A stretch of DNA of 64,000 nt from Frankia alni ACN14a. GTDB lineage: Bacteria; Actinomycetota; Actinomycetes; Frankiales; Frankiaceae. Both the position numbers and the translations under genes were made by a program. The notes below the pieces were generated by a model. The model was given only the letters and a program-made list of their open reading frames with translations, had not been told where the DNA came from and ran no database searches. Below, one piece after another: positions 40,555-47,385 of this stretch. How positions within the stretch are numbered: position 1 is the first letter of the stretch; each line of letters opens with the position of its first letter. The stretch is taken from positions 3,962,962 through 4,026,961 of the forward strand of contig NC_008278.1 of the NCBI RefSeq assembly GCF_000058485.1, written 5' to 3'.

Positions 40555-41631
40555 TCACGACAACGACGACGACGAGCCGGAGCCGGACCCGGAGCGACCG
40601 GCTCGCCCACGACGCCTGCCCGCCCGCATCGCCGGCTTGCCGGTCGCCGCTGGGGTCGCCGCTGGGGTCGCCGAGGTGGGGGTTGCCGGGATGGGGGGCG
40701 CCGGGGCGGGGGGCGCCGGGGTGGGGGGCGCCGCCCAGTGCACGGGGCGGGTCAGGGGCGCCGGCGCAGTGGTGGTCGCGTCGCCGCGGGCGGCGTCGAG
40801 CTGGGCCTGCACGACGAACAGCGCCCCGCGCAGGTCCGCCCCGCGCAGGTCGGCGCCCCGCAGATCCGCCCCGCGCAGGTCCGCGCCCCGCAGCTCGGCG
40901 CCGCGCAGGTCCGCCTCGATCAGCAGGCGGCCGGCCAGCTCCGCGCCGCGCAGATCGGCGCCGGCCAGGCGCGCGCCGACCAGGTCGACGCCGAGGGTGC
41001 GCGACCGCGGCGCGCCGATGAGCCCGGCGCGCAGCAGGGCGCTGGCGCGGGTCAGCAGGCCGTGGACGGCGCGGCGGTGGGCGGGCAGATCCGCGGCGAG
41101 CAGGGTGTCGGCGTCGGCTCCGGTCAGGGTGACCGTCACCGCCGTGGTGGCATCGAGCTCGGCGAGCAGACCGGCGCGGTCCGCGTCGGCGAGCCGGGCG
41201 TGGGCCTCACCGAGCCGCGCACGGGCCTCACCGAGGTGGTGCAGGGATTCGTGCAGGGTGCGCATGACCGTGAACGTGTCGAACATCCGCGCCGCGTCGG
41301 CGGGATGGGTGCGCCAGTCCCGGCCGGCGAAGGTGACCTGGCTGACCTGCTGGCCGGCGCCGAAACAGTCGAACACCGCGCAGCCGCGAAACCCGCGGGG
41401 GCGCAGCTCGTCGTGCACGGAGCAGTCGAGCCGTGCGCTCAGATGCCGGCACGGCGTCCCCGGAGGCTTGCTGATCGGGAAGTCCGCCGAGGTGGCGAAG
41501 CCCGGGGCGACGCAGCACAGCGCGAAGCAGCTGCCGCAGTCGGCCGCCAGCCGCGGGTGGGCGGGGGTCAGCCCCAGCTCGGCAGGGCCGCCGGGCCGGC
41601 CCGGCGCGGGCGGGTGGGGCTCGTCGCTCAC
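40555..41631 (-). CDS. Cys-rich (YkgJ-like) plus pentapeptide-repeat protein
   Basis: 358 residues. The N-terminal part has a Cys pattern [32 protein letters not shown], like the YkgJ/UPF0153 Zn/Fe-binding proteins. After a helical middle ([20 protein letters not shown]), residues about 210-275 are pentapeptide repeats: [16 protein letters not shown], then five near-identical ADLRG units, forming a right-handed quadrilateral beta-helix. A Pro/Thr/Ala tail with [13 protein letters not shown]-type repeats closes it. Diverges from the cobalamin riboswitch and operon. Role unknown. Confidence 0.82.
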
Positions 41632-41659
41632 CGCGTGGGCCTCCTCGACTCGATGGATA

Positions 41660-41925
41660 TGTCATGCTGGCGGACGCGACGGCTTCGGGAGGAAGCCGGT
41701 GCGAATCCGGCGCGGTCCCGCCACTGTCACCGGGAAGTGCGTCTTCCTGGATGGGCCCACCGGCGCGACGCGGCGCGGGAGGACACATCCGGTGATCGTC
41801 GCGCCCGGGCCGGGAATGATCTCCCGATGCCGGGTGGGGCGACGGGTCACGGCCGCGTCAGGCGGCTGGAAGGCCGAGGGCGCGCGCCGATCCGGGAGCC
41901 AGGATACTCCGGCCGTCGCAGGGTG
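41660..41925 (+). promoter_or_regulatory. Cobalamin (B12) riboswitch
   Basis: The conserved core is clear: GGAAGCCGGTGCGAATCCGG at 41691-41710, then GCGGTCCCGCCACTGT at 41712-41727 and ACCGGGAAG. The B12 box variant GAGCCAGGATACTCC lies at 41896-41910. The region between is longer than in many B12 riboswitches (extra stem near 41745-41880). It precedes the ChlD-like cobaltochelatase, cobO, cobB and cobE-like genes, so adenosylcobalamin should switch the operon off. Confidence 0.9.
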
Positions 41926-41962
41926 ATCACCAAGGGCGAGGACCCTCCGGGAGGACATCGGC

Positions 41963-42034
41963 ATGCCTGCACCACCGTCCCACCGGCCCGAGCGGCCGCA
42001 GCGGCACGTCGTCGCGGCGGCGCGGGCGTGGTGA
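41963..42034 (+). CDS. Leader peptide ORF coupled to the cobaltochelatase start
   Basis: ATG 41963 has a strong ribosome site (GGGAGG nine bases upstream) and opens a 23-residue ORF: MPAPPSHRPERPQRHVVAAA, then RAW, stop TGA 42032-42034. The stop overlaps the chelatase start region GTGGTGA (42028-42034), which has no ribosome site of its own. This is the standard geometry for translational coupling. It could also be the displaced first exon-like part of the chelatase if one base is missing. Confidence 0.55.
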   Translation: MPAPPSHRPERPQRHVVAAARAW

Positions 42035-44601
42035 GCTTCCCGCTGTCCGCCGTCGTGGGCATGGACGACCTGCGCCTGGCGCTGCTGCTCAACGCGGTCA
42101 GCCCGACGCTCGGCGGCGTGCTCGTGCGCGGGGAGAAGGGCACCGCCAAGTCCACCGCGGTGCGGGGGCTGGCCGCCGTGCTGCCACCGGTGCAGGTGGT
42201 CGACGGCTGCCGGTTCGCCTGCGCGCCGCAGGCGCCGAACCCGGACTGCCCCGACGGGCCGCATCCGGCCGCCGCGGTGGGGGTCAGCCGCCCGGCGCGG
42301 CTCGTCGAGCTTCCCGTCGGCGCCTCCGAGGACCGGGTGACCGGCTCGCTCGACCTCGACCGGGCCCTGGCCGACGGCGTCAGCGTGCTGCGCCCGGGGC
42401 TGTTGGCCGCCGCCCACCGCGGCGTGCTCTACGTCGACGAGGTCAACCTGCTCGGCGATCATCTCGTCGATCTGCTGCTCGACGCCGCCGCGCTCGGCGT
42501 CGCCCACGTCGAACGCGACGGGGTCTCGGTGCGTCACCCGGCGTCGTTCCTGCTGGTGGGGACGATGAACCCGGAGGAGGGGGAGCTGCGCCCGCAGCTG
42601 CTCGACCGGTTCGCGTTGACCGTGCAGGTCGCCGCCAGCCGCGATCCGGCGCTGCGCGCGCAGGTGGTGCGCCGCCGGCTGGCGTTCGAGGCCGACCCCG
42701 ACGGGTTCGCCGCCGCCTGGGCGCCGGCCGAGGCGCGCCTCGCCGCCCAGGTCGCCGACGCCCGCACCCGCCTGCGGGCGGTCACCCTGACCGACGCGGC
42801 GCTGCGCGCGGTGACCGCGGTCTGCGCCGGGTTGGACGTCGACGGGATGCGCGCGGACGTCGTCCTGGCGAAGACGGCGATGGCGCTGGCCGCCTGGTCC
42901 GGGCACGGCACGGTCCGCGCCGCGGACATCCGCGCCGGCGCGCGCCTGGCCCTGCCGCATCGGCGCCGCCGGGGCCCGTTCGACGCCCCCGACCTCGACG
43001 ACGCCACCCTCGACGCCGTCCTCGACGCCGCGCTCGACGGCCTCGACGCCACCGCCGACGCCGAACTCGCCGACGCGGCCACCGCCGGCACGGCCGACGG
43101 CGACACCGCCGGCACGGCCGGTGACGGCGGACGGTCACGCCAGGACGCAACCGGCGACGGAACCGGCCCCGACAACCGTGGACCGGACGGCTTCGGCCCG
43201 GACGGCCGGGGCCCGCACCCGGACGACGACCCCGACGGCGACGGTCCGCACCGCGACGGTCCGCACCGCGGCGGCCCGGACGGCGGCGGCCCCGGCAGCG
43301 GCGGCTCGGACGGCGACGACGACCGCACCGGCCCCGGCGGCTCACTCGGTGCCGGGGCCGGGCTCGACGGACAGGGACCGGCGCACGGAGCCGACCCGGC
43401 GACGGGCCCGGACGCACCGCCCGGCGCCGACGATCCGCGCCTGCCCGCCGCGCCGCACCGCGCTCCCACCGGCGCGTTCGGTGCCAGCGCCGATGCCGAG
43501 GGGCGCGGGCACCGGGCGGGCGGGGGACACCTCACCCTCCCGCCGGGGATGCGCCCTGCGTTCGCGGACCGTCCGACCATCACCGCCGGATCCGCCCGAA
43601 GCGGCGCCCCGCCCGACCCGGCCGCCGCCGGAGCGGGGGTCGCGGGGGCGCCCGGGGCGGCGTTTCGACCCCGGCTGCTCGCCGTCGCCGGCCTGGGCAG
43701 CGCCGCCGGGGCCGCCGGGCGCCGCTCCCTGGCCCGCGGCAACCGCGGGGCGGTGGTCACCACCGCCGCCGACGCCCCCGGGATGCACCTGCCCGCCACC
43801 CTGCTGGCCGCCGCCCCCCACCAGCACGCCCGCGGCCGACGCGGGCCCGCCCCGATCCTGCTGCCCGCCGACCGGCGCGGCGCGGTGCGGGTCGGCCGCG
43901 AGGGCAACCTGGTGCTGTTCGTCGTCGACGCCAGCGGATCGATGGCCGCCCAGGCGCGGATGACCCTGGTCACCACCGCCGTGCTGGCCCTGCTCACCGA
44001 CGCCTACCAGCGCCGCGACCGCATCGGCATGATCACCTTTCGGGGGTCCGGTGCCGAGGTCGTGCTCGCCCCCACCGCCAGCGTCGAGGTCGGCGCCGCC
44101 CGGCTGCGCGCGCTGCCGACCGGCGGGCGTACCCCGCTGGCCGCCGGGCTCACCCGCGCCGGGCAGGTGCTGCGCGCCGAACGCCGCCGGGACCCGGCCC
44201 GGCGCGCCCTGCTCGTCGTCGTCACCGACGGGCGCGCCACCGCCGGCGCCGACCCGCTGCCGGTGGCCCGCGCCCTGGTCCGCGCCGCCGGTGGCGCGGG
44301 GGGACCGGCCACCAGTCGGCCCCGCGGCGGGCGCGGCCCGGGTGGCACCGCGGGCCGCGGCGGGCTGGCCAGCGTCGTCGTCGACTGCGAAAGCGGCTTC
44401 CTGCGCCTGGGGCTGGCCGGCCGGCTCGCCCACGCCCTCGGCGGGATCACGATCGGACTCGACGCCCTGCCGCTGCTGACCCCACCGCCGCCGACAACCC
44501 CACCGCCGCCGACAACCCCACCGCCGCCGACAACCCCACCGCCGCCGACGACCCGGCCGACGCCGCCGACCCCGCGCCCACACGCCAGAAAGGCGGCCTG
44601 A
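42028..44601 (+). CDS. Putative cobaltochelatase, ChlD/ChlI-like fusion (AAA+ and VWA domains)
   Basis: 857 residues. The AAA+ ATPase part (1-330) has Walker A GEKGTAKST (about 36-44), Walker B VLYVDEVNLL and the LVGTMNPEEGELRPQLLDRF sensor motif. Residues ~350-560 are an Asp/Gly/His-rich linker (DPDGDGPHRDGPHRGGPDGG). The VWA domain holds MIDAS VVDASGSMAAQ near residue 630 and TDGRATAG. The C-terminus is five TPPPPT repeats. With the CobN-like subunit (not in this window) such proteins insert cobalt into hydrogenobyrinic diamide. Longer than usual (650-720). First gene of the B12-riboswitch operon. Confidence 0.88.
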   Translation: MVSFPLSAVVGMDDLRLALLLNAVSPTLGGVLVRGEKGTAKSTAVRGLAAVLPPVQVVDGCRFACAPQAPNPDCPDGPHPAAAVGVSRPARLVELPVGASEDRVTGSLDLDRALADGVSVLRPGLLAAAHRGVLYVDEVNLLGDHLVDLLLDAAALGVAHVERDGVSVRHPASFLLVGTMNPEEGELRPQLLDRFALTVQVAASRDPALRAQVVRRRLAFEADPDGFAAAWAPAEARLAAQVADARTRLRAVTLTDAALRAVTAVCAGLDVDGMRADVVLAKTAMALAAWSGHGTVRAADIRAGARLALPHRRRRGPFDAPDLDDATLDAVLDAALDGLDATADAELADAATAGTADGDTAGTAGDGGRSRQDATGDGTGPDNRGPDGFGPDGRGPHPDDDPDGDGPHRDGPHRGGPDGGGPGSGGSDGDDDRTGPGGSLGAGAGLDGQGPAHGADPATGPDAPPGADDPRLPAAPHRAPTGAFGASADAEGRGHRAGGGHLTLPPGMRPAFADRPTITAGSARSGAPPDPAAAGAGVAGAPGAAFRPRLLAVAGLGSAAGAAGRRSLARGNRGAVVTTAADAPGMHLPATLLAAAPHQHARGRRGPAPILLPADRRGAVRVGREGNLVLFVVDASGSMAAQARMTLVTTAVLALLTDAYQRRDRIGMITFRGSGAEVVLAPTASVEVGAARLRALPTGGRTPLAAGLTRAGQVLRAERRRDPARRALLVVVTDGRATAGADPLPVARALVRAAGGAGGPATSRPRGGRGPGGTAGRGGLASVVVDCESGFLRLGLAGRLAHALGGITIGLDALPLLTPPPPTTPPPPTTPPPPTTPPPPTTRPTPPTPRPHARKAA

Positions 44602-44602
44602 G

Positions 44603-45211
44603 ATGGCGCCGCAGGGGCAGCCGGCCAGCGTCCCCGACGACGGACTGACCACCCGCGAACGCCGCGACCGACCGCTACTGATCGTGCACACCGGCGACGG
44701 CAAGGGCAAGTCGACCGCCGCGTTCGGGCTGGCGTTGCGCGCCTGGTCGCAGGGCTGGCCGGTCGGGGTGTTCCAGTTCGTCAAGTCCGCCAAGTGGCGC
44801 ATCGGCGAGGAACGCGCCCTGCGGGTGCTCGCCGACTCCGGCGCCGGCGGCACCGTCGACTGGCACAAGATGGGCTCGGGCTGGAGCTGGGTGCAGGGCC
44901 GCGTCGACCCCGACGGCGACCCCGCCGCCGCCGCGGCCGAAGGCTGGGCGCAGATCCGCCGCGACCTGGCCGCCGAGACCTACCGGCTCCTCGTCCTCGA
45001 CGAGATGACCTACCCGATGGGCTGGGGCTGGCTCGACGTCGACGAGGTCGTCGACACCCTGCGTGCCCGTCCCGGCCGCCAGCACGTCGTCGTCACCGGC
45101 CGGCGCGCCCCGCAGGAGCTGCTCGACGCCGCCGACCTCGTCACCGAGATGACCAAGATCCGTCATCCGATGGACGCCGGGCAGAAGGGGCAGCGGGGGA
45201 TCGAATGGTGA
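44603..45211 (+). CDS. cobO: Cob(I)yrinic acid a,c-diamide adenosyltransferase
   Basis: 202 residues. LLIVHTGDGKGKSTAAFGLA is the P-loop (GDGKGKST), followed by VGVFQFVKSAKWRIGEERAL, LLVLDEMTYPMGWGWLD and VVVTGRRAPQELLDAADLVT, the BtuR/CobO/CobA signature. It transfers adenosyl from ATP to cobalt(I) corrinoid. Begins one base after the chelatase stop and overlaps cobB (ATGGTGA), so all three are translated together. Confidence 0.95.
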   Translation: MAPQGQPASVPDDGLTTRERRDRPLLIVHTGDGKGKSTAAFGLALRAWSQGWPVGVFQFVKSAKWRIGEERALRVLADSGAGGTVDWHKMGSGWSWVQGRVDPDGDPAAAAAEGWAQIRRDLAAETYRLLVLDEMTYPMGWGWLDVDEVVDTLRARPGRQHVVVTGRRAPQELLDAADLVTEMTKIRHPMDAGQKGQRGIEW

Positions 45212-46956
45212 GCGCGCCGCTCACCCTGCCCCGCCTCGTGCTGGCCGCCCCGACCAGCGGCGCCGGCAAGACCACGGTGACCACCGGGCTGATGGCCGCC
45301 CTGTGCGCCCGCGGGCTGCGCGTCTCCCCGCACAAGGTCGGCCCCGACTACATCGACCCCGGCTACCACGCCCTGGCCACCGGCCGGCCCGGACGCAACC
45401 TCGACGCGGTGCTGTGCGGCGAGGCACGCCTGGCCCCCCTGTTCGCCCACGGCGCGGCCGGCGCCGACGTCGCCGTCGTCGAGGGGGTGATGGGCCTGTT
45501 CGACGGCGTCGCCCGCCCGCAGCCCGGCGAGGCCGCCGACCACGCCTCCACCGCGCATGTCGCCCGGCTGCTCGACGCTCCGGTCATCCTCGTCGTCGAC
45601 GTCTCCGGCGCGGCCCGGTCCATCGCCGCGCTCGTCGCCGGGTTCCGCGCGTTCGACCGGCGCATCCACCTGGCCGGGGTGATCCTCAACCGGGTCGGTT
45701 CGCCGCGCCACCGCGCACTGCTCACCGAGGCGCTGGCCGACATCGGGATGGCGGTGTTCGGCGCCGTCCCCCGCGAACAGTCCGTGCACACCCCGTCGCG
45801 TCACCTGGGCCTCGTGCCCGCCGCCGAACGCCGCCCGGCCGCCCTCGACGCCGTCGACCGCCTCGGCGCCCTCGTCGCCGCCTCCTGCGACCTCGACGGC
45901 CTGCTGCGGGTCGCCCGCGCCGCCCCCCCGCTGCACACCGAGGCCTGGAATCCGGCCACAGCCCTCGCCACCGACACGGCCCTCGCCACCGACACGGCCC
46001 TCGCCACCGACACAGCCCTCGCCACGTCCACCGCCACCGCCACGTCCACCGTGATCGGGGAAGGCGGGCAGGGGCGAGGCGCCGGGGCCGGCCGGCCGCC
46101 GCGGATCGCCGTCGCCGGCGGGGCGGCGTTCACCTTCGGCTACGCCGAGCACGTCGAGCTGCTCACCGCCGCCGGCGCGCAGGTCGTCGCCGTCGACCCG
46201 CTGCACGACGACACGCTGCCCGCCGGCACCGACGCGCTGATCATCGGCGGGGGCTTCCCCGAGGAACACGTCGGCGCGCTCACCGCCAACACCCGGCTGC
46301 GCGGCGAGATCGCCGCGTTCGCCGCCCGCGGCGGGCCCGTCGCCGCCGAATGCGCCGGGCTGCTGTATCTGGCCCGCAGCCTCGACGGCGCGCCGATGTG
46401 CGCCGTCCTCGACGTCGACGCGGTGATGGGCCCGCGGCTCACCCTCGGCTACCGCCGGGCCGTCGCCGCCACGCCCAGCCCGCTGGTCCCGGCCGGCAGC
46501 GTCCTGGCCGCCCACGAGTTCCACCGCACCGTCCTGCTGCCCCCGCCCGCCGGCGCCCCCCCGCCCGCCTGGTGGCTGCCCGTCGTCGACCCCGCCGCCC
46601 CCGCCTCCGCCGGCGCGGCGACCCCGCCGCCGCAAGCGCCACCCGGGACGCCGCCGGCGGCCGTCGAGCCCCCGGTGGCCGGCCCGATCGAGGCGCCGTC
46701 ACGCTGGCTGGCCGAGGGCTTCGTCCACCGCCGGGTGCACGCCTCCTACCTGCACCTGCACTGGGCCGGATCGCCCCGGATCGCCACCGGCCTGCTCGCC
46801 GCCGCCCGCGCATCCCGCCGCGACCCCGCCTCCGCCACCCGCCACGACAACCCCGCCGGTACCCACCGCGACCCCGCCTCCGCCACCCGCTACGGCGATC
46901 CGCCCGCCCGCCACGGCATTCCCGGCACCGGCGGCCGCCGGCCCGGCGCGGCCTGA
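45205..46956 (+). CDS. cobB: Hydrogenobyrinic/cobyrinic acid a,c-diamide synthase
   Basis: 583 residues. The N-terminal ATP domain is PTSGAGKTTVTTGLMAALCA then VSPHKVGPDYIDPGYHALAT and VVEGVMGLFDG; the C-terminal glutamine amidotransferase domain has DALIIGGGFPEEHVGALTAN and the nucleophile Cys in VAAECAGLLYLARS. It amidates the a and c side chains using glutamine and ATP. A linker of repeats ALATDT (x3 at about 45961-46030) sits between the domains and the C-terminus is extended by SATR-type repeats. ATG 45205 overlaps the cobO stop. Confidence 0.94.
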   Translation: MVSAPLTLPRLVLAAPTSGAGKTTVTTGLMAALCARGLRVSPHKVGPDYIDPGYHALATGRPGRNLDAVLCGEARLAPLFAHGAAGADVAVVEGVMGLFDGVARPQPGEAADHASTAHVARLLDAPVILVVDVSGAARSIAALVAGFRAFDRRIHLAGVILNRVGSPRHRALLTEALADIGMAVFGAVPREQSVHTPSRHLGLVPAAERRPAALDAVDRLGALVAASCDLDGLLRVARAAPPLHTEAWNPATALATDTALATDTALATDTALATSTATATSTVIGEGGQGRGAGAGRPPRIAVAGGAAFTFGYAEHVELLTAAGAQVVAVDPLHDDTLPAGTDALIIGGGFPEEHVGALTANTRLRGEIAAFAARGGPVAAECAGLLYLARSLDGAPMCAVLDVDAVMGPRLTLGYRRAVAATPSPLVPAGSVLAAHEFHRTVLLPPPAGAPPPAWWLPVVDPAAPASAGAATPPPQAPPGTPPAAVEPPVAGPIEAPSRWLAEGFVHRRVHASYLHLHWAGSPRIATGLLAAARASRRDPASATRHDNPAGTHRDPASATRYGDPPARHGIPGTGGRRPGAA

Positions 46957-46962
46957 CCCCCG

Positions 46963-47385
46963 ATGGCCACCGCCCGGACCGCGGCCGAGCTGGTCGTCGG
47001 CGTCGGCGCGCGCCCCGGGGTCGACGCCGCGGAGATCCTCGCGCTCATCGACACGGCGCTACGCGCACTCGCCGTGCCGGCGGACGCCGTGCGCCTGCTG
47101 GCCACCGTCGACGCCCGCCGCGACGAGCCGGGCATCGTCGCCGCCGCCGACCACCACCGCTGGCCCATCGCGGCCTACCCCCCGCACCGCCTGGCCACCG
47201 TCGACGTCCCCCACCCCGGCGCCGCGCCGCAGGCCGCCCTCGGCACCCCGAGCGTCGCCGAGGCAGCCTGCCTGCTCCCCCTCGACCCGAACCCGGCCGC
47301 GCCGCGACCGGTCCTGCTCCTACCCAAACGCACCAGTCGCCGCGCCACCCTCGCCGTCGCCCGCCACCGCCCGCCACCTCGGTGA
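46963..47385 (+). CDS. CobE/CbiG-C-like cobalamin biosynthesis protein
   Basis: 140 residues. ELVVGVGARPGVDAAEILAL, LLATVDARRDEPGIVAAADH and PSVAEAACLLPL match the C-terminal domain of CbiG, also called CobE. In the anaerobic route CbiG opens the ring; in aerobic bacteria CobE is accessory and may hold intermediates. Begins six bases after cobB. It is the last gene of the riboswitch operon visible before the frameshifted epimerase. Confidence 0.8.
   Translation: MATARTAAELVVGVGARPGVDAAEILALIDTALRALAVPADAVRLLATVDARRDEPGIVAAADHHRWPIAAYPPHRLATVDVPHPGAAPQAALGTPSVAEAACLLPLDPNPAAPRPVLLLPKRTSRRATLAVARHRPPPR

Follow-up and report, generated by a model that had tools for sequence, protein, structure and literature searches.

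A cobalamin riboswitch ahead of a putative cobaltochelatase operon in Frankia and its candidate relay through an overlapping upstream open reading frame

Which start codon does a B12 riboswitch control when a short open reading frame (ORF) lies between it and the first gene of the operon? We studied this question at a locus of Frankia alni ACN14a within a window of 64,000 nucleotides (contig NC_008278.1, positions 3,962,962 to 4,026,961), which is part of a single-contig genome of 7,497,934 bp. All coordinates below count from the first letter of the window, and those of the features are collected in Table 1. A preliminary description had placed a 23-residue ORF between the B12 box and a chelatase gene and had noted that its TGA overlaps the GTGGTGA of the chelatase; both statements are borne out by the sequence, where the leader TGA lies inside a tandem pair of GTG codons and the base that follows. 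The same description had credited the leader with the only good Shine-Dalgarno (SD) sequence, which is not strictly so. Inside the aptamer, a second GGAGG stands ahead of the GTG at 41792, which opens a 44-codon ORF that ends before the leader; in relatives, the SD-preceded ORFs listed for this place vary from locus to locus. The chelatase start of the window had no SD of at least 4 bases among the SD-preceded starts listed.

Table 1. Features of the riboswitch, the leader, and the downstream operon in window coordinates
Feature	Position	Strand	Remarks
Cobalamin riboswitch aptamer, long insert in peripheral arm	41676..41919	+	RF00174 match, element coordinates, relatives
P1	41676-41682 with 41913-41919	+	Perfect 7-bp helix, from sequence
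L5 GUCC	41715-41718	+	From sequence
GCCACTG	41720-41726	+	From sequence
B12 box	41897-41907	+	From sequence
P13 hairpin AGGG(CGAGGA)CCCT	41933..41946	+	Pair-type changes and L5/L13 complementarity over 57 loci
L13 GGAC	41940-41943	+	Complementary to L5 GUCC; proposed kissing loop
SD GGAGG of leader uORF	41950..41954	+	3 nt 3' of P13; 8 nt upstream of the ORF
Leader uORF, 23 codons	41963..42034	+	ATG 41963; TGA 42032-42034, overlapping the chelatase start
GTGGTGA stop/start overlap	42028..42034	+	Tandem GTG GTG 42028-42033; chelatase GTG is 42028 or 42031
Putative cobaltochelatase, fused ChlI/ChlD-type, AAA + VWA	42031..44601	+	TIGR02442, 698 bits; VWA and Mg_chelatase Pfam domains
cobO, corrinoid adenosyltransferase	44603..45211	+	NF004637/TIGR00708 above cut-off
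cobB, (hydrogeno)cobyrinic acid a,c-diamide synthase	45205..46956	+	NF002204, 482 bits, above cut-off
CbiG C-terminal domain protein	46963..47385	+	PF01890

Anatomy of the riboswitch

The B12 riboswitch proposed upstream of the chelatase was recovered as a match to RF00174 (positions 41695-41808, plus strand) with 31.6 bits, a value that barely exceeds the gathering score of 31.5, and GCCACTG, the B12 box, and the closing P1 are all present in the window. The match stops within a long insert, and the aptamer is larger than the match: its true 3' half, as read from the sequence, is GGAAGGC...AGCCAGGATAC, with P1 closing at 41919. Eight relatives with short inserts scored 72 to 83 bits and were aligned up to model positions 168 to 189, and the alignment extended through the B12 box in all four cases for which it was printed. 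The Rfam coordinates were rejected as the full extent of the aptamer because the 3' half and P1 reach 41919 and the short-insert relatives align further. The long insert leads Rfam to truncate, underscore, or miss the riboswitch.

The distance from GCCACTG to the B12 box is 177 nt in the window, corresponding to a large peripheral arm. The insert (41727-41868 in the window) is variable, with 95 to 185 nt between the two elements in the 10 loci of the window's genus and 84 to 87 nt in the other nine Frankiaceae loci with a leader upstream ORF (uORF) or a fused leader.

Survey of related loci

The chelatase was searched for in 35 Frankiaceae genomes (31 with a hit at an E value of 1e-40) and in a wider sample of the class (134 of 296 genomes at 1e-60), from which the upstream DNA of 60 further loci was taken; at least 80 named contigs contributed to the survey, which was not exhaustive. 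The final set comprised 57 loci, related to each other, with a riboswitch-like leader and a platform ahead of the chelatase. We left out one genome with only N upstream (G029), G018 and all loci without a GCCACTG-like pattern, a 39% match (G008), chance matches to the pattern (L078, L176, and L197), and two loci with a riboswitch-like leader of another form and a direct start (L198 and L210). Second copies were also removed (L002, L138, L140, L141, L127-L136, L106, and L068); two of these, Frankia torreyi CpI1 (L068) and Protofrankia coriariae (L106), are close relatives of the window.

All 57 loci were scanned with Rfam, 17 of them at the gathering threshold only. Forty-one were above the cut-off (40 with RF00174 and one with RF01482), seven gave weaker matches, and nine had no match. 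Among the loci with a uORF, 20 of 22 were above the cut-off; the exceptions, L005 (28.0 bits) and L042 (no match), are close relatives of the window that share its long insert, and GCCACTG, the B12 box, and the platform are present in their sequences.

Ten Frankiaceae (L028-L033, L039-L041, and L043) carry a different, more compact leader resembling a B12 riboswitch, with a direct GTG start. They are all eight members of one genus (g6) plus G013 and G028, and none of the 10 reaches the Rfam cut-off.

The platform hairpin and its Shine-Dalgarno sequence

Downstream of the aptamer, the hairpin P13 stands directly before the SD of the leader. P13 was sought by its pairing (the hairpin being required within 40 nt of the regulated start), so that the pairing itself is no test and only changes of pair type are informative. 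Such changes were found over the 57 loci: pair 3 occurs as GC, AT, or GT and pair 4 as CG, AT, GC, TA, or TG, and pairs 5 and 6 also switch type. Complementarity of 4 bp between L5 and L13 was found in 43 of the 57 loci, the window included, as GUCC:GGAC in 41 and as UCGG:CCGA in two loci of Saccharopolyspora; it was weak (3 bp) in 11 loci and, by the same rule, lacking in three. Earlier automatic assignments of P13 had picked wrong hairpins in several loci, including that of the window (L004), and were not used. When the window platform was folded alone, P13 was not the lowest-energy form predicted, an isolated fold being uninformative here. A pairing of CCUC with GAGG, a candidate for SD masking, is possible in the window and, by eye, is not conserved.

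Loci in which the chelatase is started directly carry the same unit of P13 hairpin and SD. For this reason, we read the leader start as the regulated start of the riboswitch.

Start architecture across relatives

We classified the regulated start in the 57 loci by its relation to the chelatase, taking as direct those starts in frame and no more than 30 nt from the chelatase start and as fused those in frame through a longer extension. By this classification, 22 loci had an overlapping uORF, 31 a direct start, and four a fused one, with none in the third frame. The starts had first been picked by eye; a mechanical rule (the best SD 3' of P13, with ATG preferred to GTG and GTG to TTG), anchored on hairpins no more than 40 nt from the eye-chosen starts, gave the same split of 22 overlapping uORFs, 35 starts in frame, and no others. 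In all 22 uORF loci, including the window, the uORF stop overlaps the start codon of the chelatase.

By our reading, the 31 Frankiaceae with a chelatase comprise 16 with a riboswitch, an SD-ATG, and an overlapping uORF, three with the SD-ATG fused to the gene, the 10 with a riboswitch-like leader and a direct GTG, the one with N upstream, and one (G018) in which no riboswitch-like leader was seen upstream of the chelatase. Outside the family, six loci have uORFs of 6 to 15 codons, namely, L022 (family f10), L065 (Modestobacter), L069 (Blastococcus), and L146, L149, and L151 (family f28). Those of L065 and L069 begin with GTG and are less certain, with an alternative third-frame start (TTG and GTG) near the SD.

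In the four fused loci (L009, L021, L015, and L056), variable N-terminal extensions of the chelatase of 16 to 49 residues run from the riboswitch-controlled start. The three Frankiaceae extensions (L009, L021, and L015) have 16, 27, and 49 codons, and all of them have lost the chelatase start codon at the homologous place; within the extension, no further in-frame start occurs in L009 or L021, and L015 has an in-frame GTG without an SD core 18 nt before the homologous place. The fourth, from Kribbella (L056), has kept a GTG there. In a tree of 32 rows, the 16 uORF loci and three fused loci of the Frankiaceae clustered together (99/97), and the distribution of fusion among them takes two changes or more to explain. 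Fusion of the same ATG to the chelatase in three of these 19 loci does not speak against a coupled leader but points to this ATG as the regulated start of the operon.

The preliminary description had advised looking for the leader in related B12 operons, and nonconservation would have counted against it. What is conserved is the start, its SD, and the frame relation to the chelatase; the peptide is not.

Reading frame between leader and chelatase

The leader stop itself belongs to the start sequence of the chelatase, which makes the frame the proper test of a link between the two. Among the 16 Frankiaceae uORFs, linkers of 14 different lengths occur (47 to 161 nt), every one of which leaves a remainder of 2 on division by 3, and the 22 uORFs together have 18 distinct lengths in one residue class. 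Two neighboring intervals served as controls in the 19 Frankiaceae loci (16 uORF plus three fused): the distance from the B12 box to the ATG had five distinct lengths (62 to 67 nt, 65 nt in 10 of 19) and that from GCCACTG to the B12 box had 11, and both occupied all three residue classes. The probability of keeping the frame by chance would be ca. 6e-7, given at least 13 length changes at one-third each and assuming independence, an estimate that is weakened by in-frame tandem repeats seen by eye in some linkers.

The openness of the uORF alone proves nothing, because open frames are cheap in high-GC DNA, where random ORFs meet few stops: stop-free spans in other frames were found for 17 to 18 of 21 uORFs.

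A base error, without which the leader would be fused with the chelatase, was raised earlier as a possible artifact; it is unlikely and was rejected: the same overlap is seen in 16 Frankiaceae genomes whose linkers have 14 different lengths, and in L011 and L013, the linker contains a stop in the chelatase frame.

Leader peptide and initiation signals

Over the 22 loci, uORF length ranges from 6 to 55 codons, and nothing in the peptide is conserved beyond an initial MP (in Frankiaceae) and the end dictated by the overlap. GC contents at the three codon positions were 0.82, 0.73, and 0.76 in the uORFs (21 of 22 loci) versus 0.82, 0.49, and 0.94 in the chelatase. The uORFs thus do not have the coding GC pattern of the chelatase, and the peptide level gives no argument for translation. 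With a peptide that is unconserved and without this pattern, selection seems to act on the frame rather than on the product, and a functional leader peptide was rejected on the same grounds.

Initiation signals were compared by their pairing with the anti-SD. In 17 coupled loci, the energies averaged −10.8 kcal/mol for the start of the uORF and −6.5 kcal/mol for that of the chelatase; the median in 96 other orthologue loci was −9.45, taken at the best nearby in-frame start, a choice that favors strong values. Against these orthologues, the chelatase starts were weaker (Mann-Whitney P of 0.004) and the uORF starts stronger (P of 2e-6), with rows that are related to each other. Three loci (L016, L020, and L019) are exceptions, with a purine-rich stretch before the chelatase start and anti-SD values of −12.4 to −13.1.

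Proposed mechanism and alternatives

We think it probable that the locus is a translational B12 switch in which the regulated start belongs to a landing-pad uORF that passes ribosomes on by termination-reinitiation. Comparison of the loci shows the anatomy of aptamer and P13, the conservation of the SD-ATG, and a frame kept in lock together with its stop/start overlap; we infer uORF translation, reinitiation, SD masking, and an OFF response to B12. Without B12, the leader SD would be exposed and ribosomes would translate the uORF, terminate at the TGA within GTGGTGA, reinitiate on the overlapping chelatase start, and continue into cobO and cobB, which follow at close spacing. With B12, docking of L5 with L13 would stabilize P13 beside the SD and might mask it, so that the uORF would not be entered and the operon would be silent. 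The uORF would be a landing pad and its peptide would have no role of its own. The earlier suggestion that the riboswitch acts on leader translation and, by coupling, on the operon gains comparative support from the platform, the SD-ATG, the 22 of 22 overlaps, and the frame-locked linkers.

It seems rather unlikely to us that the chelatase start is recognized independently, with an incidental upstream ORF and a riboswitch acting via mRNA level or general 5' accessibility. Such a start would agree with the G-rich stretches before the chelatase in some loci, which are strongest in the three exceptions just named. It would not account for 14 linker lengths locked in frame beside control intervals in all residue classes, and it is at odds with the fused Frankiaceae, which have lost the inner start at the homologous place, and with a window chelatase that has no listed SD of at least 4 bases. 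The frame also bears on a second alternative, in which the SD is a distant standby or loading site from which ribosomes slide to the chelatase start, leaving the ORF untranslated. Sliding has been proposed for the S. meliloti SAM-II metA riboswitch (PMC9373788). It needs no reading frame, yet neither the frame nor the stop overlap has been lost in 22 loci with linkers of 18 different lengths, and we hold it to be very unlikely here.

Programmed frameshifting could join the uORF to the chelatase, in which case the fused proteins of relatives would be the real product everywhere. To the eye, the overlaps GTGGTGA, ATGACG, and GTGACC have no repetitive slip site in common and the extension sequences appear unrelated, which makes this highly improbable despite the three Frankiaceae relatives that encode a fused N-terminal extension and the minor fusion product reported for uPPE2-PPE2 (PMC11260477). 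We consider it extremely unlikely that the leader works as an attenuator, a sensing peptide that depends on its amino acid sequence: a short ORF does sit in the leader of a biosynthetic operon, but its length and sequence vary as described above, and no terminator-like site was found in 41500-42150, by a scan that is uninformative for such a high-GC genome.

Relation to known systems

The closest parallel to the proposed relay through a uORF is uPPE2-ppe2 of M. tuberculosis, where a uORF behind a B12 riboswitch was shown experimentally to act mainly by termination-reinitiation (Kipkorir et al. 2024, PMC11260477), a case repeated in a 2025 review (PMC12713380). As reported there, ppe2 and our loci share a B12 riboswitch with a proposed L5-L13 loop pairing adjoining the SD, an SD that belongs to an out-of-frame uORF in or beside the platform hairpin, a uORF stop that overlaps the downstream start (by 4 nt in ppe2), and a downstream gene without an obvious SD (PMC11260477). 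They differ in the target, which here is the cobaltochelatase-cobO-cobB operon, and in the aptamer: that of ppe2 is described as compact and class IIb-like, without a P8-P12 extension (PMC11260477), whereas the peripheral arm here is large; compactness is a trait of ppe2 itself that the relay does not require. Unlike that of ppe2, the uORF here occurs in more than one family, is free in length, and is fused to the gene in some relatives. In the literature covered, which leaves most subscription journals outside, the ppe2 work and its review were the only direct parallel found, and no report of the Frankia leader uORF was found.

Chelatase loci with a direct start, such as those of Nocardiopsis, Saccharopolyspora, and Amycolatopsis, resemble the window in the type of aptamer, the P13-L13 platform, and the position of the SD; they differ in that this SD is the chelatase's own. 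The S. meliloti SAM-II metA riboswitch requires an SD in the riboswitch with the start 74 nt downstream, and so resembles our loci in having its SD apart from the real start; it differs in its ligand and its in-frame second AUG start, and its abstract mentions no overlapping uORF (PMC9373788). Overlapping gene pairs that work by termination-reinitiation were reported to be strictly coupled in 13 of 14 cases tested (Huber et al. 2019, PMC6728339); the ATGA-type stop/start overlap is alike, but the upstream partner there is a gene and here a throw-away ORF. Upstream ORFs with ribosome delivery as their sole function are noted in a review (PMC12548453).

What is new here is conservation beyond one family, a B12 biosynthesis operon as the target, and a natural series of direct, fused, and uORF starts. 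The comparison suggests that a uORF relay after a B12 riboswitch is selectively maintained on a cobalamin operon in several actinobacterial genera, with relatives that amount to natural experiments in which the reading frame is conserved and the peptide is not. Where a uORF owns the regulated SD, gene starts and riboswitch targets can be miscalled. We offer more tentatively, as an idea that may well prove wrong, that in this actinobacterial lineage the riboswitch drives an interchangeable adaptor: the SD and start are fixed, and the stretch from there to the operon drifts freely, taking the form now of a direct start, now of an N-terminal extension fused to the protein, now of an overlapping uORF. 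On this view, the relay would insulate the structured RNA switch from the gene that it governs in a way that is neutral and evolvable, and passing a B12 signal through a uORF would be widespread, with ppe2 no special case.

Operon and genomic neighborhood

The name cobaltochelatase expresses family resemblance rather than a formal assignment, the TIGR02442 score of 698 being below the model cut-off of 779. The chelatase stop and cobO are 1 nt apart (44599-44605), and the cobO stop overlaps the ATGGTGA of cobB (45205-45211) in the same kind of overlap as that between leader and chelatase; throughout the operon, each start may therefore be coupled to the gene before it, with the leader feeding the first.

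On the other side of the riboswitch lies a divergent gene for a pentapeptide-repeat protein (PF00805; 40555-41631, minus strand) whose N-terminal part is rich in cysteine. This leaves only the short gap at 41632-41675, or the interior of the divergent gene, for the riboswitch promoter; a promoter and terminator scan of 41500-42150, uninformative at this GC content, found none.

Two other places in the same genome carry B12 riboswitches, L001 and L003, the latter at 29 bits, below the cut-off. They precede what we take to be genes for a BluB-like nitroreductase and a small CbtB-like protein. In a brief reading of both, no leader-type overlap was seen, and their starts are apparently direct.
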